IMG/VR virus record: IMGVR_UViG_3300037208_000028
Coordinates: 1-34,024 of that record
From: a virus
Reading direction: 5' to 3' (one strand)
Length of the DNA: 34,024 nt
A program made the translations under genes and the position numbers. This document shows, one piece after another, positions 3,128-32,360 of the stretch (the stretch's first letter is position 1; the number at the start of each line of letters is the position of its first letter). The notes beneath the pieces were generated by a model. That model worked only from the letters and a program-made list of their open reading frames with translations, was not told where the DNA came from and did not search any database.

Positions 3128-3508
3128 TCAATTCACCTCAAAGAGTCGATTTATTTCCGCCTCGTAATCAACCCAATCGTCGCCCGCCATGACGCAGCAG
3201 GCCCGCTCCAAAACATCCGATTCCATGTGTTGCTTATGATACAGCGCCTCCCTGCTCAATCCGGGGTCGTCCAGTTCCGGGTGGCTCATGTCGAAGGCGT
3301 CCACGGCCTCATCCGATACCCCGTCACGGTCCTTTCTGAACTTCTCCCATATCTCATGAATGAGGGCGTAAATGGAGCGGAGACCGGACAGCCGGGTAAT
3401 CTTGAACCAGATAACGTCGTCTTTCTCACCGTAGTCGCCGACGGTTGCATACCGCTGCTCGGTCTGCGGCACGAAGTCTATGACGATGCGCTTAAAAGTG
3501 AATGCCAT
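3128..3508 (-). CDS. Conserved phage protein with HExxE-type motif, unknown function
   Basis: A 126-residue protein. The ATG at 3508 is chosen because of GGGAGAGG just upstream and a 17-bp overlap with the end of the ATP-grasp gene; a longer frame reaches 3646 without a good RBS. Residues about 45-60 read LIHEIWEKFRKDRDG. Later come DAFDMSHPELDDPG and an acidic tail with YHKQHMESDVLERA and GDDWVDYE. This arrangement (helix with HE-x-x-E, then Asp-Pro-Gly and Tyr-His-x-x-His) recurs in a widespread phage family and suggests metal binding, but I know of no tested function. The stop is TGA at 3130-3128 and the AdoMetDC frame continues in the same phase beyond it. Confidence 0.65.
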   Translation of the reverse strand: MAFTFKRIVIDFVPQTEQRYATVGDYGEKDDVIWFKITRLSGLRSIYALIHEIWEKFRKDRDGVSDEAVDAFDMSHPELDDPGLSREALYHKQHMESDVLERACCVMAGDDWVDYEAEINRLFEVN

Positions 3509-5223: not shown

Positions 5224-6813
5224 TCATTGGCTATTCTCCGACCGCCGCAATCCGTAATAGCTGATGAGTTTCATAAATGCCGCTGGGTTCATGTTAGCGG
5301 TTTTTGATAGCTGAATCGCTATGTTCGACATAAGTGCAGGAGAACGAAGCGCCCGCGCGATCATCGCGCCACCCACGACACCTTTCTCTGTTCCTCCAAC
5401 ATCCCGGTCTTTTACTAGACCCACTGCCCCTCCCACGCCCGCACCTGCAAGATCGGAAAGGCCTAGAACGTCCCAATTCTTTGTTCTGTTGAGCGCCCGC
5501 TGTTGAATCTCACGAAAAATGATGTGCTCAGATTCTTCCTTATTGACCTTATTGAGAAGGCCCGTATTGTCACGATCAAGGAGGGCTTGTCTTACCCCCC
5601 TTGCCACACCTTTCAGGGTCTCTTTCGTTGTATCCGCAATCTCGCCATATGATGAATCTGTGATGTATTCGTAAAGGTCTTTTTTCATGTCCTGGGCTTC
5701 TATCGGCGTGAGATACCCTCCGTGCTTCCCCGCATACTCTTCGAGCAGATTTTGGACATTAGCCAAATCTTTTTCTGGAAGGTTGCCATACCTGCGCAGT
5801 AAGGGTTTCTCTATGCTTTTCACTACTTCCCGCATGTCGATGGCGGGCCGTTCAATGCTTGTATCGGGGCTTTTGACGGTAATAATGGTATCCGGCTTTA
5901 CTTCTATCCCCTTGAACATCCGCCGCCACTGGTCAAGCTGAGGTTTTGGATATTTCGACATATAGTGGGTTGGATCATTCCCGACGTTGCCTTTCTCGTG
6001 GTATATCTCCCTGTACGGCTCGCTCCATTTGCTTTCTGACGAAACTACTGTTTTGCCGGGAATTGTCTTTGTGGTTGTTTCTCCTGGCACGGTAAGCGTG
6101 TCTGTCTGTTTCATGCCTTTTACGATGTCATCAACTTGCGTCAAGAGGCCTTTAAACTTCTTTTGTGCTTTAGCCGCTCCTCCTTCGGTAACTGCATAGC
6201 CTTCTTTGAGGCCGAGCTTGACGGCGATATCTGACTCTGCTTTCGGAGTGCTCGGAACGGGCTTCAAAACACGGCGGTAAGTAGCCTCCGCGACGGCGGG
6301 AACAACTTTTTGCAGACCTTTTTGCAGGAGATAGTTCTGTACCTGCCCGCCCGCCTCCATCCCTGCACCGCTTACCACATCTTTGCCTGCGTTCAGGAAG
6401 TTTCGGGGCAGTGTTTCGGGCTTTCTCGCGCCTGCATATTCTTCAAGCCCGGTGGCTATATTCCGCCCTGCCGCGTATCCTAATCCTGCTCCAAGTACGC
6501 CACCCGCCACGCTTCCGGCCCCCGGTGCGGCGAGTGTTCCGCCGCCTGCGCCAACAGCACCGCCGAGAAGAAGACCGCCTGTTTCGAGAACGGGGCGGGC
6601 ATAAGGCGCAACCGCTGCGGCTACCCTCTGGCCCGTAGAGCGATCGGTCTTGGTGTCGTCGGTGAGTGGGGCTTCCACGGGAAAGAATTTATTCGATCCT
6701 GTAAGGAGAAGACCTTTCTTTCCCTCGTAGGTCACCTGCTCAAAGGCTTCCTTCGGGTAAAACTGGTTGCCCTCCAAGTACCCCTGTTTGCCTTCGTAGG
6801 TCACCTTTTCCAT
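5224..6813 (-). CDS. Large internal virion / ejection protein candidate
   Basis: A 529-residue protein. The N-terminus holds an imperfect duplication (KVTYEGKQGYLEGNQFYP and QVTYEGKKGLLLTGSNKFFP). Residues about 80-125 are a Gly/Ala-rich hydrophobic stretch (GGLLLGGAVGAGGG, GSVAGGVLGAGLGYAAG), and a second similar stretch lies near residue 455 (LAGAGVGGAVGLV). The middle is charged and helical. Gly/Ala-rich segments in large proteins encoded after the neck genes are typical of podovirus ejection proteins that enter the host envelope (P22 gp7, gp16 and gp20 are the functional analogues), but I see no direct family match. It starts one base after the stop of the 6815-8305 gene and ends tail-to-tail with the moron. 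Confidence 0.55.
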   Translation of the reverse strand: MEKVTYEGKQGYLEGNQFYPKEAFEQVTYEGKKGLLLTGSNKFFPVEAPLTDDTKTDRSTGQRVAAAVAPYARPVLETGGLLLGGAVGAGGGTLAAPGAGSVAGGVLGAGLGYAAGRNIATGLEEYAGARKPETLPRNFLNAGKDVVSGAGMEAGGQVQNYLLQKGLQKVVPAVAEATYRRVLKPVPSTPKAESDIAVKLGLKEGYAVTEGGAAKAQKKFKGLLTQVDDIVKGMKQTDTLTVPGETTTKTIPGKTVVSSESKWSEPYREIYHEKGNVGNDPTHYMSKYPKPQLDQWRRMFKGIEVKPDTIITVKSPDTSIERPAIDMREVVKSIEKPLLRRYGNLPEKDLANVQNLLEEYAGKHGGYLTPIEAQDMKKDLYEYITDSSYGEIADTTKETLKGVARGVRQALLDRDNTGLLNKVNKEESEHIIFREIQQRALNRTKNWDVLGLSDLAGAGVGGAVGLVKDRDVGGTEKGVVGGAMIARALRSPALMSNIAIQLSKTANMNPAAFMKLISYYGLRRSENSQ

Positions 6814-6814
6814 A

Positions 6815-8305
6815 CTACCAACCCTTCTTAGCTTTGGACGGGTCTATGGTGATAACGCCAGGAGGAGCGCCGCTCTGATCTTTGGGAGACGGTTTCCCCC
6901 TCATCTCGTCTTCGATGTCTTTTTGCGACTTATTGGCTGCATCCATGCTTGTCTTGCCGAGGGCCTTACCTGCTTGCACGACTTTCATCAATTCCCCAAC
7001 TTTCAGGTTTTCATCATGGATTCTTGCCATTATCTTTGCCTGGTCGATGGACACCGCGGCTATCCCAAGTGAGCCGGATTCGACCTTTGCTACTTCGTTT
7101 GAAAGGCTTGTGATAACAAGTTTGAGGGATGCGAGATCGCCAGACCCAACAAATTTAGCAAGCTCATTGACACCCATGTTGACAAAGCGGGGGTCGGTGA
7201 GGTTGTATTTTTTGGCAAGTTTTTCAACCAAGTTGGACTGCCCATCTATTCTGTTGACAAAGGTACTTATCAAGCCTTTCCTCTTCGTCACATCCTGTAA
7301 GGCCATTTGGCGGGCCTTAAACATGGCCTGCGCTGCTGCCGAGTCCGAGCCGGAATTACCTTTATTTTTTTCATACTTCGCGTAGCCCCTAGTAAAAGCG
7401 TTGCGGCTTTCTGCATCACGCCACGCAAAAGGCGGCATAGTTTTATTGCTTTCGTACTGCTCGAACCAGAAGTCTTTATCCTCTTGAGCCGCTTGAGCGA
7501 AACTTCCAGGAGCATTACTGCCTGCTTTTCGTCTCCCGGCTTCGGCTGCTTCGGCCTTTGGCCCGGCCACGTTGACCTGTATGTTTGCTCTGACCTGCTG
7601 ATTCGGCACTACTTTCGGCACATACTTGTTCTCCGGGCCTATCTCGAAGGTTGCGCTGAGTGCAGCGCCCTTTCCCGCCTTCGCAACCATCTCCTGAGAC
7701 ACCTTCATCGCCTCTTCGGGCGTGTCGTAGCCTTTCACCTTGTTCATGTTGAATAACTTTGATTCCGCCTCCTCGGCCCCCTTAACCATCCCGGTCTGTT
7801 TCTCTCCTCTAGCATCTATGGCGGCTTCCTGTAAAGCCTTCATGCGGTCTTGAGGGTTGGGAAGCTTCTGAATAGCCTTTAGCCTGTCTCCGAACTCGTT
7901 AAGGATCGGCGTGTTCGCCGAAGAGATGCCATCGAACAGCGCCCGCAGTCCAGGAGTGGGGGCTGTCTGTTTCAGGCCCTCAAGCCCTTTTGCTGCCGTG
8001 TCCGGGTCCTTCGAGTTCATCATGTCGAGGAAAGCATCGCCGATCTTTTCCGCCGTAATGGGATCGACACCCGGGTATCGTTGTGCAAGAGCGTTGTAAT
8101 GCTGTGTCTGGTGTTGCTGCTTTGTTTCTTCTTCCCGAGCCTTCAGAAAGTTGACCTTGTTGGCAAGGCGCTGAGTCTCTACCCGGTCCCCGAGGGTCGC
8201 TACGGCGATCATGTCCTGCGTCGTCGGCTGCTGGTAAACGTCCGAGAGCTTCACCTGTGGAGTCTGATTGTATTGAGGAAGGAAGTTCAACCAGTTGTCA
8301 GGCAT
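6815..8305 (-). CDS. Internal virion / ejection protein candidate
   Basis: A 496-residue protein if it starts at the ATG at 8305, which shares one base with the stop of the upstream gene (TGATG); a GTG six codons earlier (8323) is the alternative. The N-terminus is MPDNWLNFLPQYNQTP. The rest is hydrophilic and strongly helical, with long Gln/Lys/Glu stretches (EEETKQQHQTQHYNALAQRY) and an Ala/Lys-rich C-terminus. It has no membrane segment. Its size, composition and place between two Gly/Ala-rich proteins suit an internal head protein ejected with the DNA. No catalytic motif is visible, and the role is inferred from position. Confidence 0.5.
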   Translation of the reverse strand: MPDNWLNFLPQYNQTPQVKLSDVYQQPTTQDMIAVATLGDRVETQRLANKVNFLKAREEETKQQHQTQHYNALAQRYPGVDPITAEKIGDAFLDMMNSKDPDTAAKGLEGLKQTAPTPGLRALFDGISSANTPILNEFGDRLKAIQKLPNPQDRMKALQEAAIDARGEKQTGMVKGAEEAESKLFNMNKVKGYDTPEEAMKVSQEMVAKAGKGAALSATFEIGPENKYVPKVVPNQQVRANIQVNVAGPKAEAAEAGRRKAGSNAPGSFAQAAQEDKDFWFEQYESNKTMPPFAWRDAESRNAFTRGYAKYEKNKGNSGSDSAAAQAMFKARQMALQDVTKRKGLISTFVNRIDGQSNLVEKLAKKYNLTDPRFVNMGVNELAKFVGSGDLASLKLVITSLSNEVAKVESGSLGIAAVSIDQAKIMARIHDENLKVGELMKVVQAGKALGKTSMDAANKSQKDIEDEMRGKPSPKDQSGAPPGVITIDPSKAKKGW

Positions 8306-9405
8306 CAGTTCACCCCCGGCCACGTGCTTTGGAATCCCCCGACGCCCGAGAGCTGGTCAGAATATCCGCCGGAAGGGTTCTGATAGTTGTAGGCATTGAC
8401 GTTCAAGCCCTGCAGAGCCTGAGCGATGTTCTGCGAGTTCAGGTAGTTAAGGTACTGCCCGCCGGCCGTCGTGATACCATTGTTAGCGCCCGTGAGTCCC
8501 TGGCTCAATGCCGTACCTTGCGCCGCTATGCCTCCCGCCGCCGACTGTCCGCCCTGGGCCGCATACCCGCCCGCCGTGGTGGCCGCGCCGCTCTGAATAT
8601 TGGCAAGGGTCGTGTTGGCGCTCTGCCCCGAGCCCCCGACGTTGCCCGTCAGGTAGCCGTAAATCATGTTCCGGGGCTGAATCTGGTTCGTGTTGTAGTT
8701 CTGCGCCGCCTGGTTGTAGTAGGTCGGTTCCAGGGTGCCCGCAAGGTAATTAGAGATAGAAGACGCCATGTTGCCGCTTCCGTAGTTGCCCGCGGCGGCG
8801 TTCTGCGAGGCAAGTACGCCGTTGGCGAACGTCGAGGCATTCTGCAGCCCGGTGTCGGTATTCGGGTTGTAGCTGAATTGCGGGATGTTCGTCAGGTAGT
8901 TCGCGGGAAGCCCGCCGGTCGAGATCGCGTTGGACGTCGTGCCGGCTGCCGCCTGCTGCTGCTGGATGCTCTGAAGCTGTGTAAGCTGCTGTTCAGCCTG
9001 AGAATAGGCGCCCGCATACTTCGTCGCAAGGTCGCCGTGGAAGCCGCCCAAATAGGCTTGAAGGCTGGCTATCTGTTGCGTTATCTGATCGGGGGTGGCC
9101 CCGGCAGGCGTGCCCGCGATGGCTCCGACCCCCGACGTTGCGGGTGCCGAGTACGCGCCCCCGGTATCCGCGCCCTGACCGGTCAGCAGATAGTTCAGGT
9201 AGTTATAATTCCCGAGGCCGCTCTGCGTGTAGGGCTGTAGGGTTGCGGCTGCCGACTGTGAGCCTCCGAAAGCGGTCTGCATGGCCGCCGATTCCCCGGT
9301 CATGGCCGCTTGCGCTGCGTTCGCCGCGCTGTTGGAGCCCACGATGGCGTTGCCTGCGCCGGTAGCAACTCCCGAGCCGCCTATTGCTATCGCTGCCCAT
9401 GTCAT
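8305..9405 (-). CDS. Ala/Gly/Gln-rich virion protein, ejection protein candidate
   Basis: A 366-residue protein beginning MTWAAIAIGGSGVATGAG, an N-terminus typical of phage ejection (DNA transfer) proteins, which often open with a small-residue hydrophobic helix. The body is rich in Ala, Gly, Gln, Asn and Tyr (SGLGNYNYLNYLLTGQG; QYLNYLNSQNIAQALQGLN) and poor in charge. The start overlaps the cupin stop as ATGA and has AAGGAG upstream. The C-terminal coding end is coupled to the next gene by TGATG. It is first of three consecutive large genes that I interpret as internal virion proteins, equivalent in order to the P22 gp7-gp20-gp16 group. Confidence 0.6.
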   Translation of the reverse strand: MTWAAIAIGGSGVATGAGNAIVGSNSAANAAQAAMTGESAAMQTAFGGSQSAAATLQPYTQSGLGNYNYLNYLLTGQGADTGGAYSAPATSGVGAIAGTPAGATPDQITQQIASLQAYLGGFHGDLATKYAGAYSQAEQQLTQLQSIQQQQAAAGTTSNAISTGGLPANYLTNIPQFSYNPNTDTGLQNASTFANGVLASQNAAAGNYGSGNMASSISNYLAGTLEPTYYNQAAQNYNTNQIQPRNMIYGYLTGNVGGSGQSANTTLANIQSGAATTAGGYAAQGGQSAAGGIAAQGTALSQGLTGANNGITTAGGQYLNYLNSQNIAQALQGLNVNAYNYQNPSGGYSDQLSGVGGFQSTWPGVN

Positions 9406-9893
9406 GATATCTCTCCTTGTCCGCCTTCTATCTCAATCGTCCTGTCGGCAGGCGTCAGTTCGTCAAAGGTTTTTGCGACAATCTCGTCCTCTATCTTGTC
9501 GATGTCCGTTTCTCTTGTAGCGTGAACGGTTGTCCAGACAACCTCGGTGTGACAAAAGACTATCCTTTTGGTCCCTGCCTTGGTGATGAATGATGCAGGT
9601 CCCGTAACCGTCCGCCGTCCTTCCTCTTCGATGATCGTGACCGTGCCCCGCAGGATAAAAGCGGGGTGAGAATATTTGTGAATCTTGGTGATGGCCAGGT
9701 AGCCAGGAGGCATGGTAATCTCCCTGACGTACATCCCTTCGGCAAAGGTATGCTTGAGCGGGGCGCTGTCGCCTATCATGGCGCCCGGCAGGCTCCTCAT
9801 GCGTTCTTCCGCCGCCATGATCTTCTCTCTGTATTCCGCGAACGAGAGAGGGGTGTTCTCAATAATCTCTATGGCGTTGCTTGCCTCGTTCAT
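9402..9893 (-). CDS. Cupin-domain protein
   Basis: A 163-residue protein. ATG at 9893 is preferred over the GTG at 9896; AGAGGGG lies just upstream. Residues about 55-130 form a small beta-barrel pattern: REITMPPGYLAITK, then H72-K-Y-S-H76, AFILRGTVTII (the Gly turn of cupin motif 1), GPASFITKAGTKRIVFCH115 and TTVH124 as motif 2. The His residues could hold a metal. The C-terminal part is acidic. Cupin proteins are frequent in phage tail-fibre regions and may be structural or act on small molecules or sugars; the reaction cannot be told. It lies between a fibre-like gene and an ejection gene, coupled to both. Confidence 0.75.
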   Translation of the reverse strand: MNEASNAIEIIENTPLSFAEYREKIMAAEERMRSLPGAMIGDSAPLKHTFAEGMYVREITMPPGYLAITKIHKYSHPAFILRGTVTIIEEEGRRTVTGPASFITKAGTKRIVFCHTEVVWTTVHATRETDIDKIEDEIVAKTFDELTPADRTIEIEGGQGEIS

Positions 9894-24426: not shown

Positions 24427-24440
24427 AAGGAGGGTTGACC

Positions 24441-24815
24441 ATGAAATTCACCATCACAAACAGATTCACCGGCTCGGTAATGTTCGAGCTCGAAGCGGAT
24501 TCATTCATCAGGGCCAACCTCACCGGGGCGGACCTCACCGGGGCCAACCTGTCCGAAGCCAACCTGTTCAGGGCCAACCTCACCGGGGCGGACCTCACCG
24601 GGGCGAACCTCAACGGGGCGAACCTCTACAGGGCGAACCTCAACGGGGCGGACCTTACCGGGGCGAACCTCAACGGGGCGGACCTCACCGGGGCGAACCT
24701 CAACGGGGCGAACCTCAACGGGGCGGACCTCAACGGGGCGGACCTCTACGGGGCGAACCTCAACGGGGCGGACCTGTCCGAAGCCGATCTGCCCGAGGCC
24801 AATACCGACTTTTAG
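24441..24815 (+). CDS. Pentapeptide-repeat protein
   Basis: A 124-residue protein starting at the ATG at 24441 behind AAGGAGGG. After a short N-terminal cap ([20 protein letters not shown]) it has 20 consecutive pentapeptides from residue 24, of the A(N/D)LxG type, with Leu at every central position. These fold as a right-handed quadrilateral beta-helix of about five turns. Family members of this shape (Qnr, MfpA) mimic DNA and bind gyrase; others have unknown roles, so gyrase as target is a guess. The DNA is made of near-identical 15-bp units, so the gene can expand or contract. It sits in the early rightward set. Confidence 0.88.
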
Positions 24816-25692: not shown

Positions 25693-25875
25693 CTAGAAGC
25701 ACCTCGAGCGCGACCGCGACCACGAGCGCGACCACGACCACGACCACGAGCGCGACCACGAGCACGACGCCGACCACGAGCACGACACCGACCACGAGCC
25801 CGAGCCCGACACCGACCCCGAGCGCGAGCGCGACACTGCCATGTCGTACCCTGTTCGCAAAACCGCCGCGATCAT
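25693..25875 (-). CDS. Ser-X repeat ORF, copy A (60 aa)
   Basis: ATG at 25875 with AGGAGGGAGGGA upstream, stop TAG at 25695-25693. It opens with MIAAVLRTGYDMAVS, shared by all three copies, then runs as (Ser-X)n where X is Arg, Trp, Gly, Val, Cys or Ala, because the hexamer unit always has TCG (Ser) on this strand. The end is SRSRCF. Of the three copies only this one has an ATG and its own RBS; its distal end does not match B and C. Function unknown. Basic-aromatic Ser repeats might bind nucleic acid, but that is inference. Confidence 0.45.
   Translation of the reverse strand: MIAAVLRTGYDMAVSRSRSGSVSGSGSWSVSCSWSASCSWSRSWSWSWSRSWSRSRSRCF
25705..25874 (-). repeat. Hexanucleotide array element, copy A (22 units)
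   Basis: 25705-25836 is 22 perfect-phase hexamers of the form CGASNN (plus strand), with no T in the whole tract. 25837-25874 is the 38-bp flank, identical in all three copies. Upstream on the minus strand (25876-25915) is a leader resembling 26519-26556. Confidence 0.9.
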
Positions 25876-25934
25876 TATACTCCCTCCCTCCTGATTTAAG
25901 GCCCTACAGCCCCGCTTTGGTTATCGTTTAAAGA

Positions 25935-26179
25935 CCCCTCTGTTTATCTCACTGCCCTCCACGACCACGAGCCCGAGCGCGACGCCGACGCCGACCACGA
26001 CCGCGACCACGACGCCGAGCCCGAGCGCGACGCCCACCACGAGCCCGACGCCCACCACGACCACGAGCGCGACGCCGACCACGAGCGCGACGCCCACCAC
26101 GAGCGCGACGCCGAGCCCGAGCGCGACCACGACGCCGACACTGCCATGTCGTACCCTGTTCGCAAAACCGCCGCGATCA
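25935..26179 (-). repeat. Hexanucleotide array element, copy B (30 units)
   Basis: 25962-26141 is 30 hexamers in perfect phase (CGASNN; four units begin CCA), with no T on the plus strand. 26142-26179 is the shared 38-bp flank and ends on the stop codon of the 113-aa gene. 25935-25961 is a 27-bp distal flank identical to that of copy C. Confidence 0.9.
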
Positions 26180-26180
26180 C
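25944..26180 (-). CDS. Ser-X repeat ORF, copy B (78 aa)
   Basis: Starts with GTG at 26180 that overlaps the TGA of the 113-aa gene (GTGA), so translation is probably coupled. It opens with (V/M)IAAVLRTGYDMAVS and continues with Ser-X dipeptides containing many Trp, Arg and Ala (SASWSRSGSASRSWWAS), ending WRAVR in the shared distal flank. The second frame is open as well (25921-26130) and would read as Val/Ala/Leu/Gly. Function unknown; the coupled start is the main reason to prefer the Ser-X frame. Confidence 0.42.
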   Translation of the reverse strand: MIAAVLRTGYDMAVSASWSRSGSASRSWWASRSWSASRSWSWWASGSWWASRSGSASWSRSWSASASRSGSWSWRAVR

Positions 26181-26518
26181 TTCTGTACCAGTGGGGGGTT
26201 GCCGTTCAATACGACGGCATCTACGAGTGCCCCGCGCCCGACAATTACCCGGCCCTCTGGGAACGGCTCGACCTCGTTAAACTCGCATTTCTCGAGTGCA
26301 TCCGCGAACCTACCCGTGTCGGCTATCCACGCCGCATCCTCTAAAACAAGCTCCTGTGGCGTCACGGCGACCAGCCTACCCGTGTCGATCATCGTCACGG
26401 TACGGATGAGGTACGTCTTCCCGATCTCCCAATGGGAGTTGTAACTTGTTACCTCGCACTTCCCGAACATCGCCGCCAGCGCCTTTGCTTCCCCGATGGT
26501 TAACTCGTCAATCTTCAT
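26177..26518 (-). CDS. Conserved phage protein, unknown function (113 aa)
   Basis: A protein starting MKIDELTIGEAKALAAMFGK behind GGAGGGAGGGA. The middle is beta-rich (GKTYLIRTVTMIDTGRLVAV, LVLEDAAWIADTGRFADALE) and the end has EVEPFPEGRVIVGRGALVDAV. This IADTGRFADAL ... RGALVDA pattern belongs to a widespread small phage protein that I know only as hypothetical. Its TGA is shared with the GTG start of repeat ORF copy B. Confidence 0.72.
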   Translation of the reverse strand: MKIDELTIGEAKALAAMFGKCEVTSYNSHWEIGKTYLIRTVTMIDTGRLVAVTPQELVLEDAAWIADTGRFADALEKCEFNEVEPFPEGRVIVGRGALVDAVVLNGNPPLVQK

Positions 26519-26634
26519 ATTCCCTCCCTCCTGATTTGAGGCTCTAAGCCCCGATAATCTACCGGCTTCCGTCCTAACCCACGCCTTTTTCCCGACACGG
26601 TGCTACAGCTACAGTTTTTGTGTGCGACACGGAA
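26519..26634 (-). promoter_or_regulatory. 116-bp leader of the 113-aa gene
   Basis: Contains the RBS leader (26519-26556) that resembles 25876-25915, with a small GGCT/AGCC stem. Farther upstream is a pair of CGACACGG direct repeats (near 26594-26602 and 26625-26632) on either side of two CTACAG units. Possible operator or mRNA control element; no clear promoter box. Confidence 0.35.
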
Positions 26635-26928
26635 TTAAACGGGCTGTTTCGACTTCGCCATAACCCTCAATCTGTCCCCTGCCGCTTTCCTCTGTTCCTC
26701 GGTTCCTCGTTTCGGCCTGTCCGGCTTCTCATCCCGGTACGCCATAAACCCGTACAGAGGGCAATCGGGCACTTTGCAATCTTCGGCACCATCCACCCAC
26801 CCAACATTGCAGTCGTAGCACTTCCCCATCACCGCCTCTTTGTAGCTGAGTAGATCGCCCCGCATGTGCTTCATAAGTTCCCGTTTGCCCTTGTGCGCGG
26901 GCCATGAATCAACGTCTGACAGCTTCAT
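26635..26928 (-). CDS. Small Cys4 zinc-binding phage protein
   Basis: A 97-residue protein. The ATG at 26928 follows GGGGAGGGA; a much longer frame would run into the repeat array and is rejected. It contains GKCYDCNVGWVDGAEDCKVPD and a fourth Cys in DCPLYGFMAYR: a C-x2-C ... C-x4-C set that should bind zinc. The N-terminus (MKLSDVDSWPAHKGKRELMK) and the basic tail (RPKRGTEEQRKAAGDRL) are typical of a common small phage protein. The role is unknown; nucleic acid binding or early gene control is plausible. It follows repeat copy C. Confidence 0.7.
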   Translation of the reverse strand: MKLSDVDSWPAHKGKRELMKHMRGDLLSYKEAVMGKCYDCNVGWVDGAEDCKVPDCPLYGFMAYRDEKPDRPKRGTEEQRKAAGDRLRVMAKSKQPV

Positions 26929-26936
26929 ATTCCCTC

Positions 26937-27226
26937 CCCCTCTGTTTATCTCACTGCCCTCCAAACCAGTCTTTAGCTCGACCCCGGCCCCGACCACGAG
27001 CACGAGCCCGAGCGCGACCGCGACCACGAGCGCGACCACGACCACGACGCCGAGCACGACGCCGACCTCGACCACGACCACGAGCACGACGCCGAGCACG
27101 AGCGCGAGCCCGACACCGACCACGAGCCCGAGCGCGACGCCGACCACGAGCGCGACGCCGACCCCGAGCGCGACCGCGACACCGACACTGCCATGTCGTA
27201 CCCTGTTCGCAAAACCGCCGCGATCA
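26937..27226 (-). repeat. Hexanucleotide array element, copy C (35 units)
   Basis: 26979-27188 is 35 hexamers in perfect phase (one unit has CGG, one ends CT). 27189-27226 is the shared 38-bp flank, ending on the stop of the 33-aa gene. 26937-26963 is the 27-bp distal flank shared with copy B; 26964-26978 is unique. Confidence 0.9.
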
Positions 27227-27227
27227 C
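26973..27227 (-). CDS. Ser-X repeat ORF, copy C (84 aa)
   Basis: GTG at 27227 overlaps the TGA of the 33-aa gene (GTGA), the same joint as in copy B but after an unrelated gene. The N-terminus (V/M)IAAVLRTGYDMAVS is identical in amino acids to the other copies. The body is Ser-X with X mostly Arg, Trp, Cys, Gly, Ala, and the end is WSGPGSS. It is the longest copy. No function known; expression depends on coupling since no separate RBS is visible. Confidence 0.42.
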   Translation of the reverse strand: MIAAVLRTGYDMAVSVSRSRSGSASRSWSASRSGSWSVSGSRSCSASCSWSWSRSASCSASWSWSRSWSRSRSGSCSWSGPGSS

Positions 27228-27325
27228 TTTATCACCCGCCAAACCCATACCGCGTGCCACAGATTGATCGCAGCAACCATGATCGCCATGCTGAGGATGA
27301 GGTAAAAGTAGTCCTTGGGTTTCAT
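27224..27325 (-). CDS. 33-aa membrane protein
   Basis: MKPKDYFYLILSMAIMVAAI at the start and NLWHAVWVWRVIK at the end: a short charged start, one hydrophobic helix and a basic end. GGAGTG lies upstream of the ATG at 27325, just 2 bp after the RusA stop. Its stop overlaps the GTG of repeat ORF copy C. Too short for family assignment; placement in a tight gene chain supports it. Confidence 0.5.
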   Translation of the reverse strand: MKPKDYFYLILSMAIMVAAINLWHAVWVWRVIK

Positions 27326-31370: not shown

Positions 31371-31471
31371 TGGACGATTGGGGGCTTGATTTCTTCATGG
31401 CCCTTGTCGTCGGGGTACTGGCTGCCGGGTGCTGGCTGATCGCAACACTGATCGATTTTGCGACGCGCTAA
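31367..31471 (+). CDS. 34-aa membrane protein
   Basis: ATG at 31367 overlaps the previous stop (ATGA); TAA at 31469-31471. An acidic start (MMDDWGLDFF) is followed by one membrane helix (MALVVGVLAAGCWLIATLI) and DFATR. The coupling and the following RBS of the next gene (AGGGGGT) support expression. No family is recognised. Confidence 0.5.
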   Translation: MMDDWGLDFFMALVVGVLAAGCWLIATLIDFATR

Positions 31472-31481
31472 AGGGGGTAGA

Positions 31482-32360
31482 ATGAAAAAACAGCTGTTGT
31501 ATAAAGTCCTCAAAGACGGTCGGTCCGCACACGGGGGTGCCCTAGAATGGTCGCTCCCTTCCGCCGGTACGCCCGGCAACTGGCATACCTTTGAAGGCGA
31601 ACTGTCTATCTGCTGGCGAGGGATACACCTGACCAAAAAGCCGCTTCGCTGGTATGTGTGGGGTTGCACGTGTTATCTGGCCGAGGCTAAAGGCATCCAC
31701 GAATGGGAAGATGATAAGTGTGTCTGCCGGTCGGCGCGGCTCTTGGAAGAAGTGCCTCATCCTCAGTGGTGGCTCGACGCTATCGGCTTTGTCGAATCAC
31801 TCAAGAACATGGAGTGGTTCGACAACCACGGCGAGATAGACCCGAAGTGGAAAATGTTTGATACCTGGGGTGCCGCCTGGGGTGCCGCCTGGGATGCCAT
31901 CAGGGATGCCGCCTGGGATGCCGCCAGGGATGCCGCCAGGGGTGTCGTCAGGGATGCCGCCAGGGATGCCGCCAGGGATGCCACCAGGGGTGCCGCCAGG
32001 GGTGCCGCCAGGGGTGCCGCCTGGGGTGCCGCCTGGGGTGCCGCCTGGGGTGTCGTCAGGGGTGCCGTCAGGGGTGCCGCCAGGGGTGTCGTCAGGGGTG
32101 CCGCCAGGGATGTCGCCAGGGATGCCACCTGGGATGCCGCCTGGGGTGTCGTCAGGGGTGCCGCCAGGGATGCCGCCAGGGATGCCGCCAGGGATGCCAC
32201 CTGGGATGCCGCCCTAAAAGCAACATTCATCGTCACGGCTGACCTCAAGATAGAAGACAAGCACCGCACGTTTGTCGATGAAATGTGGCATATCCTGGCC
32301 GCCGGTTACGGGTATTTCGGAATGGTCGAGGGCGTCCATTATGTTTACAGGAAGCCATAG
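31482..32360 (+). CDS. DUF7666-like protein with 29 tetrapeptide repeats
   Basis: A 292-residue protein starting at the ATG at 31482 behind AAGGGGG; an earlier in-frame ATG lacks an RBS. The N-terminal part (about 1-90; [47 protein letters not shown]) matches my memory of a phage domain listed as DUF7666, of unknown function. Residues 129-244 are 29 uninterrupted tetrapeptides [WR]-[GD]-[AV]-[AVT], coded by 12-bp units; they should form one long helix with a Trp/Arg stripe. The C-terminus ([20 protein letters not shown]) is ordinary. The same kind of repeat tail recurs in other phages, which suggests it has a use, perhaps a rod or nucleic acid contact. Confidence 0.7.
31866..32213 (+). repeat. 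12-bp tandem repeat, 29 units, in frame
   Basis: Units of the form (T/A)GG-G(A/G)T-G(C/T)C-(G/A)(C/T)C in exact 12-bp phase with no interruption, inside the 292-aa gene. Variation is at a few positions only, mostly changing Trp/Arg, Gly/Asp and Ala/Val. Confidence 0.92.

Follow-up and report, generated by a model that had tools for sequence, protein, structure and literature searches.

A two-gene phage module pairing a predicted Sm-fold protein with a serine-alternating repeat protein

Organization of the locus

The DNA analyzed here, called the window, is the whole 34,024-nucleotide stretch of a 34-kb viral record, which encodes terminase, portal and major head proteins as well as replication functions. 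It contains three hexanucleotide arrays, whose positions and sizes proved to be those given by an earlier, sequence-only reading of the same DNA (Table 1). Strict CGASNN units account for 22 of 22 hexamers in array A, 27 of 30 in array B and 34 of 35 in array C; the remaining units are three CCACCA in array B, in which the Ser codon TCG has become TGG, and one CGGCCC in array C. The longest run of CGASNN in the window is 33 units, whereas no run exceeded 3 units when the mononucleotides of the window were shuffled 200 times. The 5' flank (minus strand) that had been described as identical is indeed so over 38 bp in all three copies and extends to 41 bp between copies B and C; its 35-bp core occurs exactly three times, against an expectation of 0. 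The 27-bp distal flank common to copies B and C was likewise recovered, and the overlaps of GTG with TGA are real, both that of copy B with the 113-aa gene and that of copy C with the 33-aa gene. We can add that copy A has its own ATG and a strong Shine-Dalgarno sequence (GGAGGGAGGGAGTATAATG), and that its leader resembles the leader of the 113-aa gene (gene 1).

Read along the minus strand, the 33-aa gene comes first, followed by copy C, a 97-aa gene and gene 1 with its leader, then by copy B, copy A with its own leader, and an AlpA-type regulator; RusA, a primase/helicase and a replication initiator are also encoded in the neighbourhood. Each copy encodes a constant N-terminus and a (Ser-X)n tail, as had been proposed, and the N-terminus is conserved at the protein level. 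The window arrays are atypical among those of relatives, since their X codons include GCG, GTG, TGC, CGC and GGC, and the presence of Ala, Val and Cys at X makes them outliers. Copy B is the canonical gene 2, and copy C is a duplicate at the 33-aa gene. Because copy C shares both ends with copy B, the common flanks are explained by duplication within the genome and not by an inserting element; duplication also fits copy A, which has its N-terminus in common with copy B and a leader like that of gene 1. The claim that this genome has gained extra copies of the element, one of them after a gene of no relation, is borne out by copy C.

Two other repeat genes were observed in the window. A pentapeptide-repeat protein (24435-24815; PHROG 7713, of unknown function) is encoded by a gene with a 15-nt tandem array on the plus strand (24511-24775). 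A 300-aa protein (31458-32360; PHROG 8332, of unknown function) has a 4-residue repeat of the AA[RW][DG] type, with a 12-nt array (31867-32213) inside its gene, and is a second Arg/Trp-rich repeat protein of this phage.

Table 1. Features of the module and of its copies, in window coordinates
Feature	Position	Strand	Remarks
Gene 1, 113-aa protein with predicted Sm fold, type I	26177..26518	-	alignment, model, fold matches; sole copy in the record
Gene 1 motifs			..YLIRTVTMIDTGRLVAV..LVLEDAAWIADTGRF..FNEVEPFP..VIVGRGALVDA.. (alignment)
Gene 1 leader and ribosome-binding site	26519..26560	-	AAATCAGGAGGGAGGGAATATG
Gene 2 copy B, 78 aa	25944..26180	-	GTG overlapping gene 1 TGA; canonical arrangement in relatives
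Copy B protein			N-terminus VIAAVLRTGYDMAV, array, then WRAVR*
Array B, 30 hexamers	25962..26141	-	27 strictly TCG-type
Copy B 38-bp conserved 5' part	26142..26179	-	N-terminal codons
Copy B 27-bp distal flank	25935..25961	-	holds WRAVR* and stop
Gene 2 copy A, 60 aa	25693..25875	-	follows copy B directly; has its own ATG and Shine-Dalgarno
Array A, 22 hexamers	25705..25836	-	
Copy A 38-bp conserved 5' part	25837..25874	-	
Copy A leader	25876..25905	-	AAATCAGGAGGGAGGGAGTATA; resembles gene 1 leader
Gene 2 copy C, 84 aa	26973..27227	-	GTG overlapping 33-aa gene TGA; array, then GPGSS*
Array C, 35 hexamers	26979..27188	-	34 strict
Copy C 38-bp conserved 5' part	27189..27226	-	
Copy C 27-bp distal flank	26937..26963	-	
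33-aa gene	27224..27325	-	one hydrophobic stretch (MKPKDYFYLILSMAIMVAAINLWHAVWVWRVIK); copy C joined to its stop; not Sm-like

Gene 1 is predicted to adopt an Sm fold

By sequence, no family was found for gene 1 in Pfam, PHROGs or NCBIfam. Modelled with AlphaFold2, the 113-aa protein had a pLDDT of 90.5, and the model consists of an N-terminal helix and a five-strand bent barrel, the arrangement expected of an Sm protein. When this model was compared with the PDB using Foldseek and VIA-align 2, the top matches were all Sm/LSm proteins, and Sm/LSm proteins appeared nearly throughout the list; among the 50 matches listed by VIA-align 2, all were Sm/LSm proteins or complexes with an Sm-fold subunit. 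The best match was archaeal SmAP1 (Z 9.8, rmsd 1.5 over 64 residues), which covered residues 28-106 of the model. The best viral fold match was a DUF6948 phage protein (Foldseek E 1.8e-4). A second family of upstream genes, type II, is characterized by the motif YIYTGKLVGVN; its AlphaFold2 model had a pLDDT of 79.5, and the two types are homologous (hhalign probability 95, E 3e-8).

In the alignment, the conserved residues specific to the gene 1 family are RTVT, W-[IV]-A-D-[TS]-G-R-F and N-E-V-E-P. Inspection of the alignment by eye revealed no Sm1 'DxxMN' residues; loop 3 has no Asn and is shorter by about one residue, and an Sm2-like 'GRGSIVDA' stretch is present in only part of type I. No Sm model appeared even among the weak Pfam matches of 35 + 17 family members, and hhalign comparisons of gene 1 with Sm and Hfq sequences were weak (P 0.02-0.65). 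Since profile comparison does not connect gene 1 with Sm or Hfq, the assignment of the fold rests on predicted models, and RNA binding by gene 1 is uncertain because the canonical 'DxxMN' residues are not visible. On the strength of the models, gene 1 is probably a member of the Sm/LSm superfamily, whose fold is known.

Gene 2 is linked to gene 1 across phages

The pattern (TCGNNS)x12 matched at least 120 stretches of viral DNA. Poly-Ser, SP and SV tracts aside, the matches were mostly short ORFs encoding an N-terminus of 8-15 residues followed by (Ser-[RGW])n, and the gene directly before these ORFs was repeatedly of type I (the 113-aa family) or type II. To measure the linkage, loci were fetched by the upstream protein alone, and an array was defined as at least 4 Ser-X units behind the gene. 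In viral and genome contigs, 85 of the 89 type I genes had an array behind them; for type II the count was 73 of 80. The type I exceptions comprised one short array (L145), one locus with none (L128) and two loci with another ORF (L169 and L172), in which, after position 3342, the type I gene is followed by a different overlapping ORF (MSDKLFKYKASSWIKPAIERLEILSE..) and no array. Among the type II exceptions, arrays were very short in L237 and L271 and absent from L252, the contig end cuts inside gene 2 in L264, L266 and L287, and the contig of L290 ends 10 bases past the stop position of gene 1. Within the same loci, an array lay within 300 nt downstream of 132 of 139 Sm-fold ORFs but of only 86 of 2546 other ORFs, and arrays of at least 8 units followed 80% of the Sm-fold ORFs versus 0.55% of the others.

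These counts bear on two points of the sequence-only reading. It had named relatives free of the element as evidence against itself, and we found the array right behind nearly all relatives of the 113-aa protein. It had also pictured an autonomous module grafted at random onto the ends of genes; instead, the array gene regularly follows a conserved gene whose product has a predicted Sm fold, and sequence comparison establishes the two as a conserved, linked module. Of 23 records with an array not directly behind a recognised Sm gene, 15 carry an Sm gene elsewhere, and a few array records show no Sm-fold gene at all. The N-terminal peptide of gene 2 predicts the Sm type of its partner in 153 of 168 cases by nearest neighbour (baseline 62.5%), a link that could be simple co-inheritance.

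Some unusual arrangements were also observed. Two records (L076:5947-6720 and L120:1832-2524) each encode one protein in which a (Ser-X)n array lies internally and precedes a domain with weak alignment to the Sm-fold gene. This C-terminal domain aligns in register with gene 1 (hhalign P 0.0027, in a comparison of the only two family members found), which is suggestive of a possible natural fusion of the array gene with an Sm-like domain. A 47-kb record (L057) contains two array genes (6519-7319 and 9185-9514) with the same N-terminus, MIHSEPAY; one of them lies directly behind a 707-aa ORF, and no Sm-fold gene was recognised in the record.

Coding frame and codon usage of gene 2

The N-terminus of type I gene 2 reads M-N-A-A-[VI]-L-R-[TA]-G-[FY]-D-x-S, and that of type II is roughly M-R-x-x-K-Q-K-Y-R-S. 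For the type I N-terminus, pN/pS was 0.60 in frame versus 0.98 and 1.09 in the shifted frames, and in 82 of 84 type I gene 2 sequences the base after the start codon is an A, which creates the xTGA overlap. In 142 of 156 arrays, one Ser codon was used at a purity of at least 90%; the dominant codon was TCG in 105 arrays, TCA in 17, TCT in 17 and AGC in 15. Arg is encoded by CGG or AGG, and Gly by GGG in 136 of 141. The X position is occupied by Gly (35%), Arg (31%) and Trp (29%), whose order along the arrays is nearly random.

The +1 frame of the arrays reads RG, QG/HG, LG or AG, varying with the Ser codon. Because changes of the Ser codon alter the residues of all other frames, only the Ser-X frame is constant in meaning; the Ser codon is uniform within arrays and different between them, and only Ser-X is kept, which indicates that selection acts on the protein. 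We rejected (RG)n, (AV)n and other frames as the real product, since their residues change with the Ser codon. The idea that NGG serves as a Cas9 PAM decoy or another DNA signal found no support, Ser-X being the conserved feature. A first-base change within the NGG set swaps Trp, Arg and Gly, and this may be the reason for the form of the unit. Searches of Pfam and other family libraries with gene 2 gave no match above the cut-off, and protein searches with gene 2 alone returned no matches, because the gene is mostly of low complexity.

The arrays are hypervariable

Array length and order are highly dynamic, and arrays differ completely between phages with identical Sm-gene DNA. In three pairs of loci (L228/L229, L104/L261 and L291/L292), the Sm-gene DNA is identical over 210 nt and the N-termini before the arrays are identical, while the arrays are different; L184 and L185 have different arrays at 98% identity. 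Identical arrays were also found across different metagenome datasets (L136-L138; L220, L222, L223, L225 and L226), and because they recur in this way, assembly error is not a likely cause of the differences. The complete circular record MW202573.1 carries the module as well, so the assembly artefact against which the sequence-only reading had warned is unlikely. Many contigs end inside arrays, as assembly breaks would produce. Two records, G010 (L008/L061) and G020 (L032/L058), have arrays at both contig ends and probably represent circular genomes that the assembly split at the array.

Distribution and genomic neighbourhood

The module was found in hundreds of environmental phages. Nucleotide searches for the 38-bp flank in viral contigs and for the region in phages gave no match. 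The only annotated phage records found with the module were MW202573.1, in which both genes (UOF78857 and UOF78858) are labelled 'hypothetical protein', and MW202825.1, in which gene 1 is unannotated. Among 84,980 bacterial and archaeal species genomes, gene 1 occurred at only 8 loci, all on MAG contigs, and plasmids yielded no gene 1 match. In relatives, the neighbouring genes encode helicases, clamp loader, RecT, RecE, SSB and methyltransferases. Neither SX arrays nor DUF6948 was described in the literature searched, which was open-access only and thus weak evidence of absence. The gene pair looks like a previously undescribed phage system: by sequence it has no entry in Pfam, PHROGs or NCBIfam, and this literature does not mention it.

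Origin and possible function of the module

We consider it about an even chance that the two genes form a phage module whose products make up a multivalent RNA- or ssDNA-protein assembly. Gene 1 would supply a small Sm-fold protein, and gene 2, translationally coupled to it through the ATGA/GTGA overlap, would supply a short lineage-specific N-terminal peptide with a disordered tail in which Ser alternates with Arg, Gly or Trp. We infer that the constant N-terminus docks the gene 2 product onto the Sm-fold protein and that Arg and Trp of the tail act as stickers making many weak contacts, with Ser and Gly as spacers, so that the pair would form a multivalent condensate with RNA or ssDNA. Such an assembly is proposed for early infection because the genes lie among replication and recombination genes. 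The tails would change by duplication and loss of units, and in units of the form [Ser]NGG, Trp, Arg and Gly could interconvert by one first-base change without producing a stop. In this phage, gene 2 would have been duplicated twice, with copy A placed behind copy B and copy C behind another gene. The sticker-and-spacer idea is general knowledge on disordered proteins, and the relevant papers concern other proteins. More tentatively, the module might be a widespread phage condensate system with an Sm-fold platform and a coupled sticker-and-spacer partner whose tail is rapidly remodelled; its Ser-NGG code would be closed under first-base mutation, with the chemistry of the tail kept, and in prokaryotic viruses it would correspond to the Sm/LSm rings that bear low-complexity tails.

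Other explanations have to be weighed against this. A selfish or neutral hexanucleotide expansion, that is, a microsatellite-like slipping tract translated without function, would account for arrays that differ wholly between near-identical phages, for the near-random order of Trp, Arg and Gly, for copies spread within the genome and for codon uniformity within an array, as unit duplication predicts. We regard it as unlikely, because the N-terminal peptide is conserved at the protein level, Ser-[RGW] is kept despite the use of TCG, TCA, TCT or AGC for Ser and of CGG or AGG for Arg, and the position behind the Sm-fold gene is nearly universal. The same retention of Ser-[RGW] counts against an element acting at the DNA or RNA level, such as a recombination hot spot, a protein-binding array or a packaging or decoy site, in which coding would be incidental: AGC-NGG, TCT-NGG and TCG-NGG arrays share little beyond a GG every 6 nt, and the start overlap and conserved N-terminus indicate translation. 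This explanation therefore receives little credence from us, even though almost all X codons are NGG, GGG is almost the only Gly codon, and RecT, RecE and RusA genes lie near the module.

The pair could also be toxin-antitoxin-like or serve lysis or host takeover, the Sm-fold protein restraining or delivering a cationic peptide rich in Trp and Arg. Two small coupled genes, occasional displaced copies of gene 2 and a tail with ~14% Trp and ~15% Arg, suited to a membrane- or nucleic-acid-active peptide, would agree with such a role; it is nevertheless improbable, since in the loci examined the module lies among replication and not lysis genes, gene 2 has by inspection no hydrophobic stretch, and it matched no family of any kind. 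Finally, the autonomous replicating repeat module inserting behind genes, the idea of the sequence-only reading, draws on the two flanks common to copies B and C and on displaced copies here and in other records. We judge it highly improbable: no terminal structure, integrase or exact boundary was seen (terminal repeats were looked for unsystematically), the array is fixed behind one gene family in relatives, and only the coding sequence and the 27-bp flank are shared; gene duplication explains the copies.

Under the preferred reading, a two-gene module forming a nucleic acid-protein assembly, the pair links a protein of Sm-like fold to one of very simple composition, half Ser and otherwise Arg, Gly and Trp, which is probably disordered. 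If assemblies with RNA or ssDNA are indeed formed, the module would be a natural, minimal and rapidly evolving model of a sticker-and-spacer condensate in bacteria, and phages would be shown to possess Sm-type RNPs of their own. The frequent breaks of viral contigs at arrays would also be accounted for.

Comparison with known systems

Like CRISPR, REP, IS and DGR elements, the arrays are repeats with variable units at fixed positions. Unlike CRISPR and IS elements, they have no spacers, and no transposase was seen; in contrast to all four, their codons are uniform and their variable position is mostly limited to three bases. This limited set of bases, together with the uniformity of the Arg codon, speaks against a DGR target. 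Low-complexity Ser/Arg or Arg/Gly tails are carried on RNA-binding folds by eukaryotic SR proteins and by Sm D1/D3. The gene 2 tail differs from these in being a separate, Trp-rich protein with strict alternation of Ser and R/G/W; compared with SR proteins, it lacks an RRM and its alternation is S-[RGW] and not RS only, and compared with the RG tails of Sm D1/D3, the RG-reading frame of the arrays is not conserved.

With regard to gene 1, Hfq is likewise a small Sm-fold protein of the bacterial world, but gene 1 has no YKHAIST signature, and hhalign against Hfq sequences was not significant. DUF6948 and 'Sm-like domain' phage proteins (BFVD models) gave the best viral fold matches, although identity is only 16% and DUF6948 was not matched by sequence. 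The closest likeness in the predicted models is to Sm/LSm proteins (SmAP1 1i8f/1lnx and eukaryotic Sm/LSm rings), with which gene 1 would have in common the helix and five-strand barrel. It differs from them in lacking a sequence-family match and a visible DxxMN, in having, between strands 3 and 4, an insertion that contains the motif WIADTGRF, and in being phage-borne, with its tail encoded by a separate, coupled gene.
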